NCBI RefSeq assembly: GCF_002075795.1
Contig: NZ_CP020472.1
Coordinates: forward strand, 1,223,001-1,287,000
Origin: Shewanella japonica
GTDB lineage: Bacteria; Pseudomonadota; Gammaproteobacteria; Enterobacterales; Shewanellaceae
Direction of reading: 5' to 3'
Length of the DNA stretch: 64,000 nucleotides
Positions within the stretch are counted from its first letter, which is position 1. Each line of letters starts with the position of its first letter. Positions 46,074 through 52,572 of this stretch are shown piece after piece. The translations under genes and the position numbers were made by a program. The notes under the pieces are model-generated. The model searched no databases. It was given only the letters and a program-made list of their open reading frames with translations, and had not been told where the DNA came from.

Positions 46074-47922
46074 CTGTAGAATTTCTCTCCAAATGACGTT
46101 TTCAACGTCTTTTACAAATAAACTTATCTGGTTGTTTTTTAACCTTGCGGCGTATCAATGTCTGTGATCTAATAGATATTATTCACCTACAGTAAATTGT
46201 TATGGCCAACTACAAGCCTGACTTATCCTGTCAAAGTAAATTCATTCCCATCAATTTTTCAGAGCAAATTCTGCCTGGTACGTTTGAGTATGCGCTTTGT
46301 TATATTATCGAGAATAAACTTGATTTATCGACATTTGATACCTGGTATAACAATGATAAAACGGGGGCAGCGGCGTATTCTCCCGCTGTGATGTTGAAGG
46401 TTATTTTACTCGGTTACGCTCATGGTTTAATCAGTAGCCGACGCATTGCCAAAGCTTGCGAAAACAATATTTTGTTCATGAGTGTGTCCGGTGACGTTCA
46501 GCCACATTACACTTCTATAGCGGGGTTTGTGGCTAAAATGCATGAGCAAATAGAACCCCTTTTTACCCAAGTGCTGATGATATGTGACGAAGAAGGATTA
46601 ATCGGTCGTAATATGTTCGCTATTGATGGTTGTAAGATGAAGTCAAATGCGAGTAAAGAATGGAGCGGCACATTCGATGAACTTGGTCGTAAAAGAGTTA
46701 AGCTACAGCGTGCAAGTCAGCGCATTATTGAGCGTCATCAAGCGCAAGATGGGCTAAGTGAAGAGCTCGCCACACAAGATTTAAAGCAAAAAGAAAAGCT
46801 GGATAAAAGTGCGGATAAAATTACGACATTCCTTGCGACACACAAAGAGAAGTTAGGCAGTCAAGGCAAGCCTGTAAAAAGTAATATCACCGATCCTGAC
46901 AGCGCCAAGATGACGACATCTAAAGGCACCATACAAGGTTATAACGGGATTGCGATAAATGATGATAAACATCAAATCATCCTACAAGCAAAAGCGTGGG
47001 GCTCGGTCGGTGAACAACAAACGCTCAAGCCTGCAGTCACGCAATTAAAACAACAGCTCGATAAACTCCATGTCGATATGCCCTCAAACGAACACACCAT
47101 TAAATTCACCGCAGACAGCGGGTTCAATAGTGAAGCTAATTTGGCATTTATGGCGCAAAGTGGCTTTGATGTTTACATTGCCGATAACCAATTTAGAAAA
47201 CGAAACCCGCTGTTTAAAGACAGTGAAACTTACGAAACAGAACAAGAAAAACGCAGATTTAAACGACGTCAGGGCAAGCCGCGCTTATTTACCTCTAGTG
47301 ACTTTCATTATGATGAAACCACTCAGACCTGCCGCTGTCCTGCGGGCAATGACATGTGGCGAAGTGGTATCAATGTTAAAAGTTATAACCAAGAGTACAC
47401 CCGATTCTGTGGTTACTTAAAAGACTGTAAAAACTGCCCGCTACAACAGCAATGCATGCGCAAACCGCCGATAAAAACGGGTCGGCAAGTACAGTTTAAG
47501 AATGATGAATCACGCAAAAAGCTCAGTTACATTGATAAGATGAAAGTGAAGATAGACAGCCCGATGGGACGACGACAATACAGCAAACGGCTCGGTTGTA
47601 TTGAGCCAGTATTTGGCAATATTACGGTCAATAAAGGCATGAACAAACTGACCTTACGAGGCCAAGAAAAAGTAAACGCCCAATGGCAACTGTATTGTCT
47701 TGTTCATAATATCGAGAAACTGCAACATAGTATGCATTAAGAGGGGAAGCCCTTTTTACCTTTAAAAGTGACGTCTAAAGCTTCACTTAAACCGCAATTA
47801 TCCCCACTTAAAATCAATGCTTGAAATCATAATGAAACCTAGGCTAAATGCTTGAATCAAAATAGGAACTCATATACTGTTTATTGATTGAACAATTAAT
47901 TTTAAACGAGTAATTCTACAAG
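46074..47922 (+). mobile_element. IS1182-like insertion sequence
   Basis: About 1.85 kb around the transposase. Imperfect terminal inverted repeats are TGTAGAATTTCTC at 46075-46087 and its relative GAGTAATTCTACA at 47908-47920. It abuts the right box of attC A on one side and a right-box-like CGTTATATGC on the other, so it sits in the cassette array and seems to have replaced a cassette. Exact ends and target duplication could not be fixed by eye. Confidence 0.7.
46202..47740 (+). CDS. IS1182-family DDE transposase
   Basis: 512 residues, apparently intact. N-terminal DUF772-type domain (AAYSPAVMLKVILLGYAHGL) followed by a DDE domain: FAIDGCKMKSNASKEWSG contains the first catalytic Asp, IKFTADSGFNSEANLAFM the second, and GCIEPVFGNITVNKGM the Glu region. 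A cysteine-rich stretch (CRCPAGNDMW ... CPLQQQCM) lies near the C-terminus as in IS1182 relatives. No frameshift, so possibly active. Confidence 0.9.
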   Translation: MANYKPDLSCQSKFIPINFSEQILPGTFEYALCYIIENKLDLSTFDTWYNNDKTGAAAYSPAVMLKVILLGYAHGLISSRRIAKACENNILFMSVSGDVQPHYTSIAGFVAKMHEQIEPLFTQVLMICDEEGLIGRNMFAIDGCKMKSNASKEWSGTFDELGRKRVKLQRASQRIIERHQAQDGLSEELATQDLKQKEKLDKSADKITTFLATHKEKLGSQGKPVKSNITDPDSAKMTTSKGTIQGYNGIAINDDKHQIILQAKAWGSVGEQQTLKPAVTQLKQQLDKLHVDMPSNEHTIKFTADSGFNSEANLAFMAQSGFDVYIADNQFRKRNPLFKDSETYETEQEKRRFKRRQGKPRLFTSSDFHYDETTQTCRCPAGNDMWRSGINVKSYNQEYTRFCGYLKDCKNCPLQQQCMRKPPIKTGRQVQFKNDESRKKLSYIDKMKVKIDSPMGRRQYSKRLGCIEPVFGNITVNKGMNKLTLRGQEKVNAQWQLYCLVHNIEKLQHSMH

Positions 47923-49818: not shown

Positions 49819-49856
49819 AGAAACCTAACAAGAGACTATGGCGTCAATAGCTAATT

Positions 49857-50821
49857 TCAAGCTTTTGGCGCTTCCCGCATCACACCATCTCTTAGCATTG
49901 AATTAAGCGTCACGACCATCTTTCTAATACAGGCAATAATAGCTACTTTCTTTGGTTTTCCGGCTTCGACTAAACGTTGGTAAGTTTCTTTAAAAACAGG
50001 GTTTGATTGTATGGCTGACATCATTGCCATATACAAAACAGTCCTGACCTGATGCCGTCCACCTTGAATTTTTCGTTGGCCTTTGAAGCGACCACTTTCT
50101 TTATTCATTGGTGCAACACCAACTAATGAACTCGCTTCTTTATTATTAATATATCCAAGTTCAGGCAGGTTACTGATGATTGAAGCAGCGGCGATTTTAC
50201 CTATTCCTTTCATGCTTTGTAGAATGATATTTTTGGCTTGGCTGATTTATTACGAGAAGCAGGGTTGGACTCAATGAGTTTAACTATTTTTGCTTCTATC
50301 TTTTCTATCTGATTTTTAAATACAGTTAAGATAGGTTTGATGGTCATCGCAACCTCTTTCGGCAGAATTTGCAGCCTGTTCTTCTCCATCGTTTGCATTG
50401 CCATAATTTGATTGCGTCTTGAGACTAAATCGCTCATAGCCTGCATGATGTCAGGCTTTAAAGTAGATAGCTTAGGCTTAATCGCATCTCCATAATGAGC
50501 GATGAGCTGCGCATCTAGCCTGTCTGTTTTAGCTTTTTGACCAATGGCACCAGCAAATCGTTTTATGTGTATTGGGTTCGCAATAACGAAGGGCAGATTT
50601 GCTTCAGCGCAGGCCATGATAAATGGCATTTCTAAGCGACCTGTTGCTTCAATAACGATACGTTCAGGATGGTGTTTCTTGATGAGGTTAACAGCTTCTT
50701 TAATGCCTTTCTCATCGTTTTTGACGTTGAAAAAGATATCGAGTGGTCGGATATAAATATCGAGCTGAAACTTACCCGTATCGACACCGATGTTAATGTT
50801 TTGATTAGTTTTTGAATTCAT
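49857..50821 (-). pseudogene. IS110-family transposase, frameshifted
   Basis: Two overlapping frames make one IS110 transposase: 50821-50210 carries the DEDD RuvC-like domain (IGVDTGKFQLDIYI, IVIEATG, KTDRLDAQLIA) and 50213-49857 carries the C-terminal Transposase_20 domain (MKGIGKIAAASIIS, ASLVGVAPMNKESG, RTVLYMAMMSA). They join by a -1 shift at CCAAAAAT near 50230. This may be a disabling mutation or, less likely, a programmed shift at the A run. The C-terminal serine-bearing region looks intact. Confidence 0.85.
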
Positions 50822-51046
50822 AATAAGCTAACTCTTGCTTGCAAATGCGGGTTCGAGACCCAGTAGACTATTCGAGTGTTTTGCTTGGAGTCCTTTGTCG
50901 CGTTCTTTCTTGTTATCGGTCTCTCAATAGAGGAGCCAGCAATCAATCGAACTACGACAAGGAAAGCTTTAGTTGCAGCTAAAGCCTGGGTCTCACATTA
51001 CCCGAAACAGGGAAGTATTTGTAAATTAGGTGGGTTTATTATCCAT
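50822..51046 (-). ncRNA. Putative bridge RNA region of the IS110 element
   Basis: Non-coding left end upstream of the transposase, about 225 bases. It contains a clear hairpin (minus strand GCTTTAGCTGCAACTAAAGC). On the minus strand it also reads ATAACAAG at 50916-50909, identical to the attC target up to one base, and ATAGTCT at 50871-50865, identical to the element's own right terminus. These are the expected contents of the target and donor loops of an IS110 bridge RNA. Structure and expression are inferred. Confidence 0.5.
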
Positions 51047-51153
51047 ACAAGCTAATTAATAAGGACAAAAAACAGTTGGCTGTTTTCGTTCCTCAACATT
51101 TTAGCCAACAATTTTTTGCCCATTATTAGGGCGTTAGTTTGCAAGGAGGTATC

Positions 51154-51798: not shown

Positions 51799-52098
51799 AT
51801 GGAAGTTATCGAACGAGTTGAGATACTCGAAAATAATCAATTAATCGTTGTCTTAGCTAGTGGTGGCAATCCAAGATATCAGCATATTTATCGTGAAGGT
51901 GCTGAAGTGTATTGGGATAATGGTTTAAAAGCATTCACATCACCTCCACCTCGAAGCTGGAGTCATTCCGACTGGCTTCATCAAATTATAAACGTCACTA
52001 AAAATTGTAATATTAATTTAAGTTTTAATGATGAAACACTTTGGGTTAATATCCCAAACAACGTTAAAGAACAAATGGTTGTAGGTATAAACACCTAA
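51799..52098 (+). CDS. Cassette gene 7: small protein of unknown function
   Basis: 99 residues; ATG twelve bases after the attC F right box. Starts with a strand-rich segment (RVEILENNQLIVVLASGG, YQHIYREGAEVYWDNG) then a helical part (SDWLHQIINVTKN). No family recognised. The stop TAA is part of the next attC left box. Confidence 0.68.
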   Translation: MEVIERVEILENNQLIVVLASGGNPRYQHIYREGAEVYWDNGLKAFTSPPPRSWSHSDWLHQIINVTKNCNINLSFNDETLWVNIPNNVKEQMVVGINT

Positions 52099-52102
52099 CA
52101 AG
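52093..52102 (+). repeat. attC site G, left end only
   Basis: A perfect left box ACCTAAC followed by AAG, after which the IS110 remnant begins. No right half was found downstream, so the site and the end of the array were probably lost by deletion. Confidence 0.75.
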
Positions 52103-52239
52103 AGACTATGGCGTCAATAGCTAATTTTGAGCTTTTGAGGCTTCCCATATTACATCATCTCTTAGCATGCAATTCAGTGTTACAATCATCTTGCTAATAC
52201 AGGCAATTATTGCCACTTTCTTTGGTCTTTGAAGCGACT
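52103..52239 (-). mobile_element. IS110 remnant at attC site G
   Basis: Begins AGACTATGGCGTCAATAGCT, identical to the 3' end of the element at 49833, and continues with about 80-85% identity by eye through the transposase C-terminus, with an internal deletion between CTTTCTTTGG and CTTTGAAGCGAC. The rest of the element is missing. It is older than, and not a direct copy of, the element in attC E. Confidence 0.82.
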
Positions 52240-52572
52240 AATATGTGGGTAAGTAATATGTGGGTCAGTGTAAATTTTAATTTATTACCTTTCCTTTCCT
52301 TTCCTTTCCTTTCCTAATCCCACGAGCGATTCTATACCCTTTGCGCTTACAAGCTTCTGTCCAGAACCATACTCGCTCTAAACCATTTATCTCCTCCACA
52401 TGACTATATGCGAACAAAAAAGTATGTTCGACACAGGTCGAACGCTACTTCTAAGCTAGAACAAATTACCAGTAATCTATTGCTGAGTTTGTGATATTTT
52501 ACAGTAATAAAAGACTGTTCAATTAAGTCATTAAAATAAACCTCAACGCTATGAATTATTGGGTATAAATGT
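52240..52572. other. Non-coding region after the cassette array
   Basis: No gene seen. It has two copies of TAATATGTGGGT (52239-52250 and 52254-52265) and a pentanucleotide repeat of CCTTT, 5.6 units, at 52288-52315. The rest is AT-rich and probably carries the promoter of the EamA gene. Confidence 0.55.

Follow-up and report, generated by a model that had tools for sequence, protein, structure and literature searches.

An IS110-group insertion sequence at integron attC sites of Shewanella japonica with a predicted bridge RNA matching its target and its own ends

An insertion sequence of the IS110 group splits an integron attC site in the window, which is the whole 64,000-nucleotide stretch of Shewanella japonica DNA analyzed here (positions 1,223,001 to 1,287,000 of a 4.98-Mb single-contig genome) and which contains a cassette array. 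From sequence comparisons, the non-coding end upstream of the transposase gene (tnp) is very probably the source of a bridge RNA that pairs with the conserved left half of attC and with the element's own ends, so that the transposase would insert there. The element occupies attC sites in marine bacteria and likely locates them by its own guide RNA, because the predicted guides change together with the element end and the insertion site. The right target guide covers the R'' box (TAACAA and the next base) and the left target guide the adjacent L'' side. The features are listed in Table 1.

The left junction (49824–49841) reads CCTAACAAG followed by AGACTATGG, and the right junction (51041–51064) consists of ATCCAT, ACAAG, and CTAATTAATAAGG in succession. 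An earlier note on this DNA had placed the split directly after TAACAAG with ACAAG on both sides, and the junction sequences bear this out, including the element boundaries given in Table 1. The non-coding ends of the element comprise 225 bases upstream and 24 bases downstream of tnp. Both short segments that had been pointed out in the minus-strand upstream end, ATAGTCT and ATAACAAG, are present. The array has been hit at least twice, because a fragment of a related element occupies the neighboring attC. A cassette protein encoded next to the element in the array (51799–52095) matches the integron cassette family Hfx_Cass5. Near the cassette array, an open reading frame of 512 amino acids (46202–47740) reads like another, unrelated transposase.

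Table 1. Positions of the element, its insertion site, and the predicted RNA features in the window
Feature	Position	Strand	Remark
IS110-group insertion sequence	49833..51046	− (tnp sense)	In the left simple site of attC; ACAAG on either side
Upstream piece of the split attC left box, TAACAAG	49826..49832	+	
Remainder of the split attC, ACAAGCTAATTAATAAGGAC ... GGGCGTTAG	51047..51139	+	L001: R' 86 nt from the junction, hairpin z −5.6
Sub-terminal inverted repeat, 5 bp, TATGG	49837..49841	+	Other arm CCATA, 51043–51047
Left donor ATAGTCT	49833..49839	−	Right terminus of the element (tnp sense)
Transposase gene, 3' part	49857..50213	−	Transposase_20 domain
Transposase gene, 5' part	50210..50821	−	DEDD domain; reading frame broken here
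−35-like box TTGACG, right end	49842..49847	−	17 bases from the −10-like box when the circle is joined
−10-like box GATAAT, left end	51038..51043	−	Half of the predicted circle-junction promoter
Predicted bridge RNA	50825..51031	−	Approximate, inferred ends; start placed about 7 bases past GATAAT according to the circle-junction promoter
5' stem-loop of the predicted RNA	50966..50985	−	Two-sided changes in 5 of 7 pairs
Target-binding stem-loop of the predicted RNA	50893..50961	−	Outer stem: two-sided changes in 7 of 11 pairs
Predicted left target guide TTGATTGCT	50938..50946	−	Variable 9-mer, 5' side of the internal loop
Apical hairpin separating the target guides	50918..50937	−	Nearly invariant
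Predicted right target guide ATAACAAG	50909..50916	−	Complement of CTTGTTAT; 3' side of the internal loop
Predicted left donor guide ATAGTCT	50865..50871	−	Same bases as the right terminus of the element
Candidate right donor guide TGCAAG	50838..50843	−	Inferred; pairing with CTTGTA expected, with one G-T
Fragment of a related element, 82% identical	52095..52254	−	In the next attC of the array (L009)

The genome harbors five full-length copies of the element, with 100, 99, 98, 98, and 98% identity to the query, as well as four fragments. In tnp sense, every full copy reads ...CTTGT-ATGGATAAT...GCCATAGTCT-CTTGT-TA. All five occupy the left simple site of an attC in one orientation, with tnp opposed to the cassettes, and the left flanks of L001 (the window copy) to L005 are attC bodies with the R' box 86–100 bases off and a stable hairpin. 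The gene is intact in L004 and L005, and an intact copy is located at 2.27 Mb of the genome. Compared with these two, the frame of the window copy is split into 203 and 118 amino acids by a 14-bp insertion, which L002 and L003 have in common with it. The three broken copies reside at different attC sites. Because they share the insertion, yet are 7–19 substitutions apart, the sequences suggest that broken copies were moved by transposase supplied in trans.

Each of the two transposase pieces of the window copy carries one IS110-family Pfam domain, namely DEDD (PF01548) and Transposase_20 (PF02371). An intact copy scored 212.9 bits against the NCBIfam model of the IS110 RNA-guided transposases (NF033542, cut-off 140) and aligned with IS621 over residues 10–314 (E 4.4e−26), which is a full-length match, whereas only 20.8 bits were obtained with IS4321 of R751, the sole IS1111-group enzyme compared. 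IS4321 reaches IS621 in its C-terminal part only. Judged by these alignments, the transposase is IS621-like and not IS1111-like. The organization of the element also corresponds to IS621 and the IS110 group as far as described in the accessible part of PMC11208160: the predicted RNA is located in the left end upstream of tnp, the target loop has the same order (bottom-strand left guide 5', top-strand right guide 3'), and the core CT, the left donor guide, and the circle-junction promoter, which is predicted here, are common to both. Differences from the system in that part of the text are the target, which is attC here, one extra base between the left donor guide and its CT, and a sub-terminal repeat of 5 bp compared with 2–3 bp described for the IS110 group. 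The right target guide has about 8 nt, and a longer right guide is given for some orthologues in the same source (PMC11208160, in part).

The target class is the same as that of a known group of attC-inserting IS1111 elements. That the window element is a member of this group, and not of the IS110 group, is hardly credible given its architecture. Earlier work on the IS1111-attC group is reportedly that of Tetu and Holmes in 2008 and of Post and Hall in 2009. According to the accessible text of PMC11187229, RNA-guided insertion into attC is published for the IS1111 elements ISKpn4 and ISPst6 and predicted for ISPa25, and the IS1111-attC elements carry a seekRNA that matches the target; RNA-guided insertion at one attC end is likewise predicted for the window element. 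In that text, however, the non-coding region lies downstream of tnp instead of upstream, and the two target matches are in reverse order relative to the window element, whose bottom-strand match precedes the top-strand match, which is the IS110 order of the same source (PMC11187229, in part). The sub-terminal repeats of the IS1111 elements are also longer (7–17 bp in the accessible part of PMC11208160) than the CCATA/TATGG repeat of the window element, and the comparison with IS621 and IS4321 argues against membership as well.

Relatives of the element were collected from several sources. A scan with one genome per species gave 124 loci with relatives, mainly in Alteromonadales and Vibrionales, the best 80 of which were used; among these 80, the nearest named hosts were Shewanella, with a transposase 91% identical in S. 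waksmanii. Further relatives came from 25 of 97 genomes of the genus (E ≤ 1e−20, own genome counted), from 12 regions of plasmid records, and from a search of the order, in which at least 25 of 394 genomes were positive (E ≤ 1e−90) with at most five candidates scored per genome, so that the counts are lower bounds. Phages gave 19 records, all below 60% identity. The first set comprised 83 element records including the copies of the own genome; L010–L016 were left out as duplicates, and other loci were fragments or had an unreadable end. For the left-guide test, 77 of the 83 remained after removal of L009 (duplicate of the window copy), L070 (decayed end), and four records without a left flank. 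The donor-guide count covered 72 of the 83, the rest having no read right end or a right end misplaced by the parser (L110, L111, L125); the right end of L111 was read by eye, and L111 and L125 were re-read for the tree analysis. The attC-signature count covered 76 of the 83, because seven flanks were too short, and still included the duplicate L009. The transposase tree contained 58 rows with a transposase of at least 285 amino acids, and the diagnostic-base comparison 67 elements. A later set of 29 loci consisted of two of three from viral contigs (L144, L145) and 27 from the order search (L190–L216). Of these, L212 was unparsed, and six loci repeated records of the first set. L145 was parsed a second time, spuriously; the right end was misplaced in L204, L208, and L216 and absent in two records, and L199 and L204 had no usable left flank.

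An alignment of 59 upstream ends gave a consensus fold with a 5' stem-loop followed by a long stem with an internal loop. This loop is capped by a hairpin that hardly varies and so does not lend itself to a covariation test. In the stems, 120 cells were changed on both sides compared with 34 in shuffles, and the covariation score was 0.227 compared with 0.094 (shuffled) and ≤0.058 (slid partners). The position of the matching segments in loops or stems had been named as a decisive check, and the consensus places the two target-matching segments on opposite sides of the internal loop in the covarying stem and leaves the donor-matching segment unpaired. The proposed folding of the window's own 225 bases (z −2.65) would not settle the loops by itself, since the two target segments partly pair with each other in the single-sequence fold; the alignment was therefore taken instead. 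An Rfam search of the 64-kb window at the gathering threshold returned seven tRNAs and no bridge RNA family. In the Alteromonadaceae elements L022 and L042, the small hairpin past the left donor guide contains an extra stretch that is self-complementary by eye.

The predicted right target guide changes with the right flank. RNAs with ATAACAAG face CTTGTTA, those with ATAACAAAC face GTTTGTTA, ATAACGAAC faces GTTCGTTA, and TTAATAAG faces CTTATTA. Only three of 72 right flanks were off the pattern by a base (L056, L068, and L073; TTGTTA pattern). The diagnostic base at position −1 of the right side agreed with the RNA type in 67 of 67 elements and in 17 of 18 of the later set; the comparison of insertion sites among relatives, which the earlier note had called for, thus gave right flanks that fit the RNA type. 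In tnp sense, by far most relatives have TTGT as the junction part common to both sides; exceptions include L025, L028, L056, L068, and L104. Since the base preceding TTGT is set by the element type on the right side (67 of 67) and is variable on the left (46 C, 16 T, 5 A), the base on the right is probably derived from the element.

The predicted left target guide is variable, with 43 distinct 9-mers across both sets. On average, 6.49 of its 9 positions matched the left flank of the same element (best of two registers), compared with 5.12 for the flanks of other elements (n = 77; 0 of 20,000 shuffles), and the difference persisted when the guides were collapsed to 35 distinct strings (6.46 compared with 5.06). 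The matches fall in two registers one base apart, with single-register means of 5.31 and 4.78 compared with 2.27 at other offsets of the same flanks, the latter background referring to one register. Because of these two registers and the extra base before the CT of the left donor guide, the exact core is a provisional assignment. In the later set, the left guide matched at 5.86 compared with 4.68 positions (n = 21; 0 of 20,000). Matches in the window genome were modest (5–7 of 9), and only 3 of 9 positions matched in L049 and L101. A side branch consisting of L056, L073, and L104 has the left guides TATCCTTAT or TATCCTAAT, and the own flanks are matched at 8–9 of 9 positions; the site of L056 is palindromic by eye and atypical as an attC.

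A correlation between guide and flank might also arise from shared ancestry alone, if the hosts of related elements are themselves related and have similar attC sites, among which the choice is made without the guide. The RNA type does track the type of attC found in the loci of the hosts: AACAAAC is read by many Vibrio-type RNAs, in whose loci TAACAAAC is the most frequent attC-like site (15 of 41), and AACAAG by Alteromonadales-type RNAs, with TAACAAG at 33 of 52 sites. Phylogenetically independent guide changes at supported branches amounted to two pairs per trait, so that an independent-pairs test cannot reach significance. However, the excess of matches to the own flank persisted within the Vibrio-type stratum (p 0.0005; 0.005 without one outlying guide) and within the Alteromonadales-type stratum (0 of 20,000, also without four outlying guides). 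An excess was also found at occupied attC sites within each of the two genomes compared. In the own genome, the left guide matched 5.67 positions at six occupied sites, which include the fragment L007 and represent five distinct flank sequences, compared with 4.72 at 18 empty attC sites (p 0.023). The empty sites were sought in five stretches (about 90 kb) and the window, about 150 kb in all, and three of 21 candidates were dropped because they were not cassette-like. In Alteromonas gracilis, three occupied sites matched at 9, 9, and 9 of 9 positions, whereas 21 empty attC-like sites averaged 4.95 (p 0.003); the empty sites were taken from 36 loci, and a few of them look spurious. The occupied sites are those of L034, L035, and L037, whose left flank is resolved; for L033, L036, and L092, the sequence begins 11 bases from the element. 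An inventory of attC sites with a gapped pattern was rejected, because its hits were mostly at chance level (a reversed control pattern gave as many or nearly as many in two of four genomes), and it was replaced by direct attC detection in sequence stretches. Given the excess within strata and within genomes, we consider common ancestry without a role of the guide unlikely.

Another source of agreement would be a guide that is copied from the site at every insertion. Exact matches (9 of 9) in some elements would fit such copying, as would the differing left guides within the genomes G303 (L206, L215) and G324 (L201, L214) and the second element of L206, which fits its own flank best (7 compared with 3–5). 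In G303, however, a single base separates the two guides, and the fit of the other guide is the same for both flanks (6 and 6). Moreover, a single left guide was found at different sites in the own genome (five full copies), in G087 (five), and in G047 (three). Since one guide occurs at different sites in three genomes, it is not simply copied at insertion, and we regard copying at every insertion as extremely improbable compared with a guide that directs the element to its site.

attC is a folded site. The transposase protein alone might recognize it, or the folded single-stranded attC hairpin might be recognized, and the RNA-like matches would then be fortuitous or serve to regulate the expression of tnp. 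Of 76 insertions, 47 showed the R' signature of attC, compared with 20.9% of background windows, as would be expected if the folded site were recognized; the other 29 were without a simple R', and by eye some of these resemble attC with another R' and others do not. On the other hand, L025, L040, L056, and L137 are without the R' signature, yet their left guides match at 9 of 9 positions. In addition, the loop that holds the target guides belongs to a covarying stem, and changes in the guide segments go along with changes in flank and terminus. Because of this covariation, recognition by protein alone or through the hairpin was set aside as very unlikely. The left-guide match was 6.50 at insertions with both attC signals (n = 18), 6.21 with R' only (n = 28), 8.0 with the inverted repeat only (n = 3), and 6.33 with neither (n = 24). 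On average, these values gave no support to the idea that insertions off attC fit the guide better than those in attC (6.33 for neither signal compared with 6.50 for both). The proposal of a natural bridge RNA programmed to attC holds in so far as ATAACAAG is the predicted right target guide and ATAGTCT the left donor guide; it had missed the left target guide TTGATTGCT, and it has to be qualified because the window copy is without an intact transposase and the R' signature is confined to the above fraction of the relatives.

In 69 of 72 relatives, the left donor guide and the terminus of the same element were identical, the exceptions being L064, L068, and L139. Both vary jointly among ATAGTCT, ATAGTCG, ATACTCG, ATAGTCA, and ACAGTCA; on the transposase tree, guide and terminus each changed eight times. 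In the later set, the guide agreed in 16 of 18 located ends, and a further donor type, ATAGCCC, was found at both places in L192. The matches of only 7–8 bases, for which structural support had been thought necessary, are hence above chance and lie in a conserved RNA-like region, in which they covary with flank and terminus. The two disagreeing elements of the later set are L197 and L203. L203 combines an RNA of the CTTGTTA type with an end of the TTTGTTA type, and the end of L197 likewise misfits its RNA; both are possibly recombinants between two lineages. The right donor guide and the closing stem of the donor loop are without covariation support, and TGCAAG as right donor guide is a guess and the weakest of the assignments.

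For 63 of 67 elements, joining the ends creates TTGAC[GA]-17-GATAAT. The accessible part of PMC11208160 describes a promoter at the circle junction of IS110 elements. In the integrated form, a consensus promoter scan listed no promoter-like site at the upstream end of the element. The element would leave as a circle, which would unite the −35-like box of the right end with the −10-like box of the left end and thereby switch on the RNA. The complex of RNA and transposase would then pair with double-stranded attC, and recombination would take place within or beside TTGT. The window copy with its broken gene would need an intact copy to move, and the genome has two.

For IS110 elements generally, it is published that the bridge RNA covaries with its target and its donor (PMC11208160, in part). 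As far as the accessible text of a survey of Shewanella integrons goes, IS110-family elements, among them ISSde13, are present in cassette arrays and no IS inside attC is reported (PMC9229058). ISPa21 disrupts the attC of blaGES-5 integrons, a disruption common to it and the window element; it is called IS110 in the abstract and assigned to the IS1111 group in the accessible text, unlike the window element (PMC11616780). In the literature on bridge RNA, seekRNA, and IS110 together with attC, integron, or superintegron, with ISfinder and subscription papers outside the search, no report recognizable as describing an IS110-group element with this target was found. As attC targeting is already published for IS1111 elements, the new aspect here is the other, IS110-group architecture of the family. 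We tentatively propose, as a possibility somewhat short of even, that the element represents a second, independently built RNA-guided parasite of integrons. Its IS110-group bridge RNA would read the R'' box, the one part of attC that has to stay unchanged for integrons to recombine, by a long and near-fixed right guide, and the left guide would drift after the arrays of each host. The element might thus follow integrons through Alteromonadales and Vibrionales and, by splitting attC, could freeze cassettes. If true, RNA-guided attC targeting arose on both architectures of the IS110 family. The relatives would supply a natural series of guide–target pairs, from which the evolution of guides and the choice of cores and of sites within one genome can be read directly. 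The proposal also bears on the guide length and register tolerated by a bridge RNA and on how the cassette arrays of environmental integrons become immobile.

The genome contains one full integron integrase (350 bits, at 3,212,029). Less than 17 kb from it are one full copy (L005) and two fragments (L006, L007), and the remaining copies are far off. A weak remnant of an integron integrase (29.5 bits) was detected at 2,974,171–2,974,305 of the genome, about 3.4 kb from L002, and possibly represents a decayed second integron.
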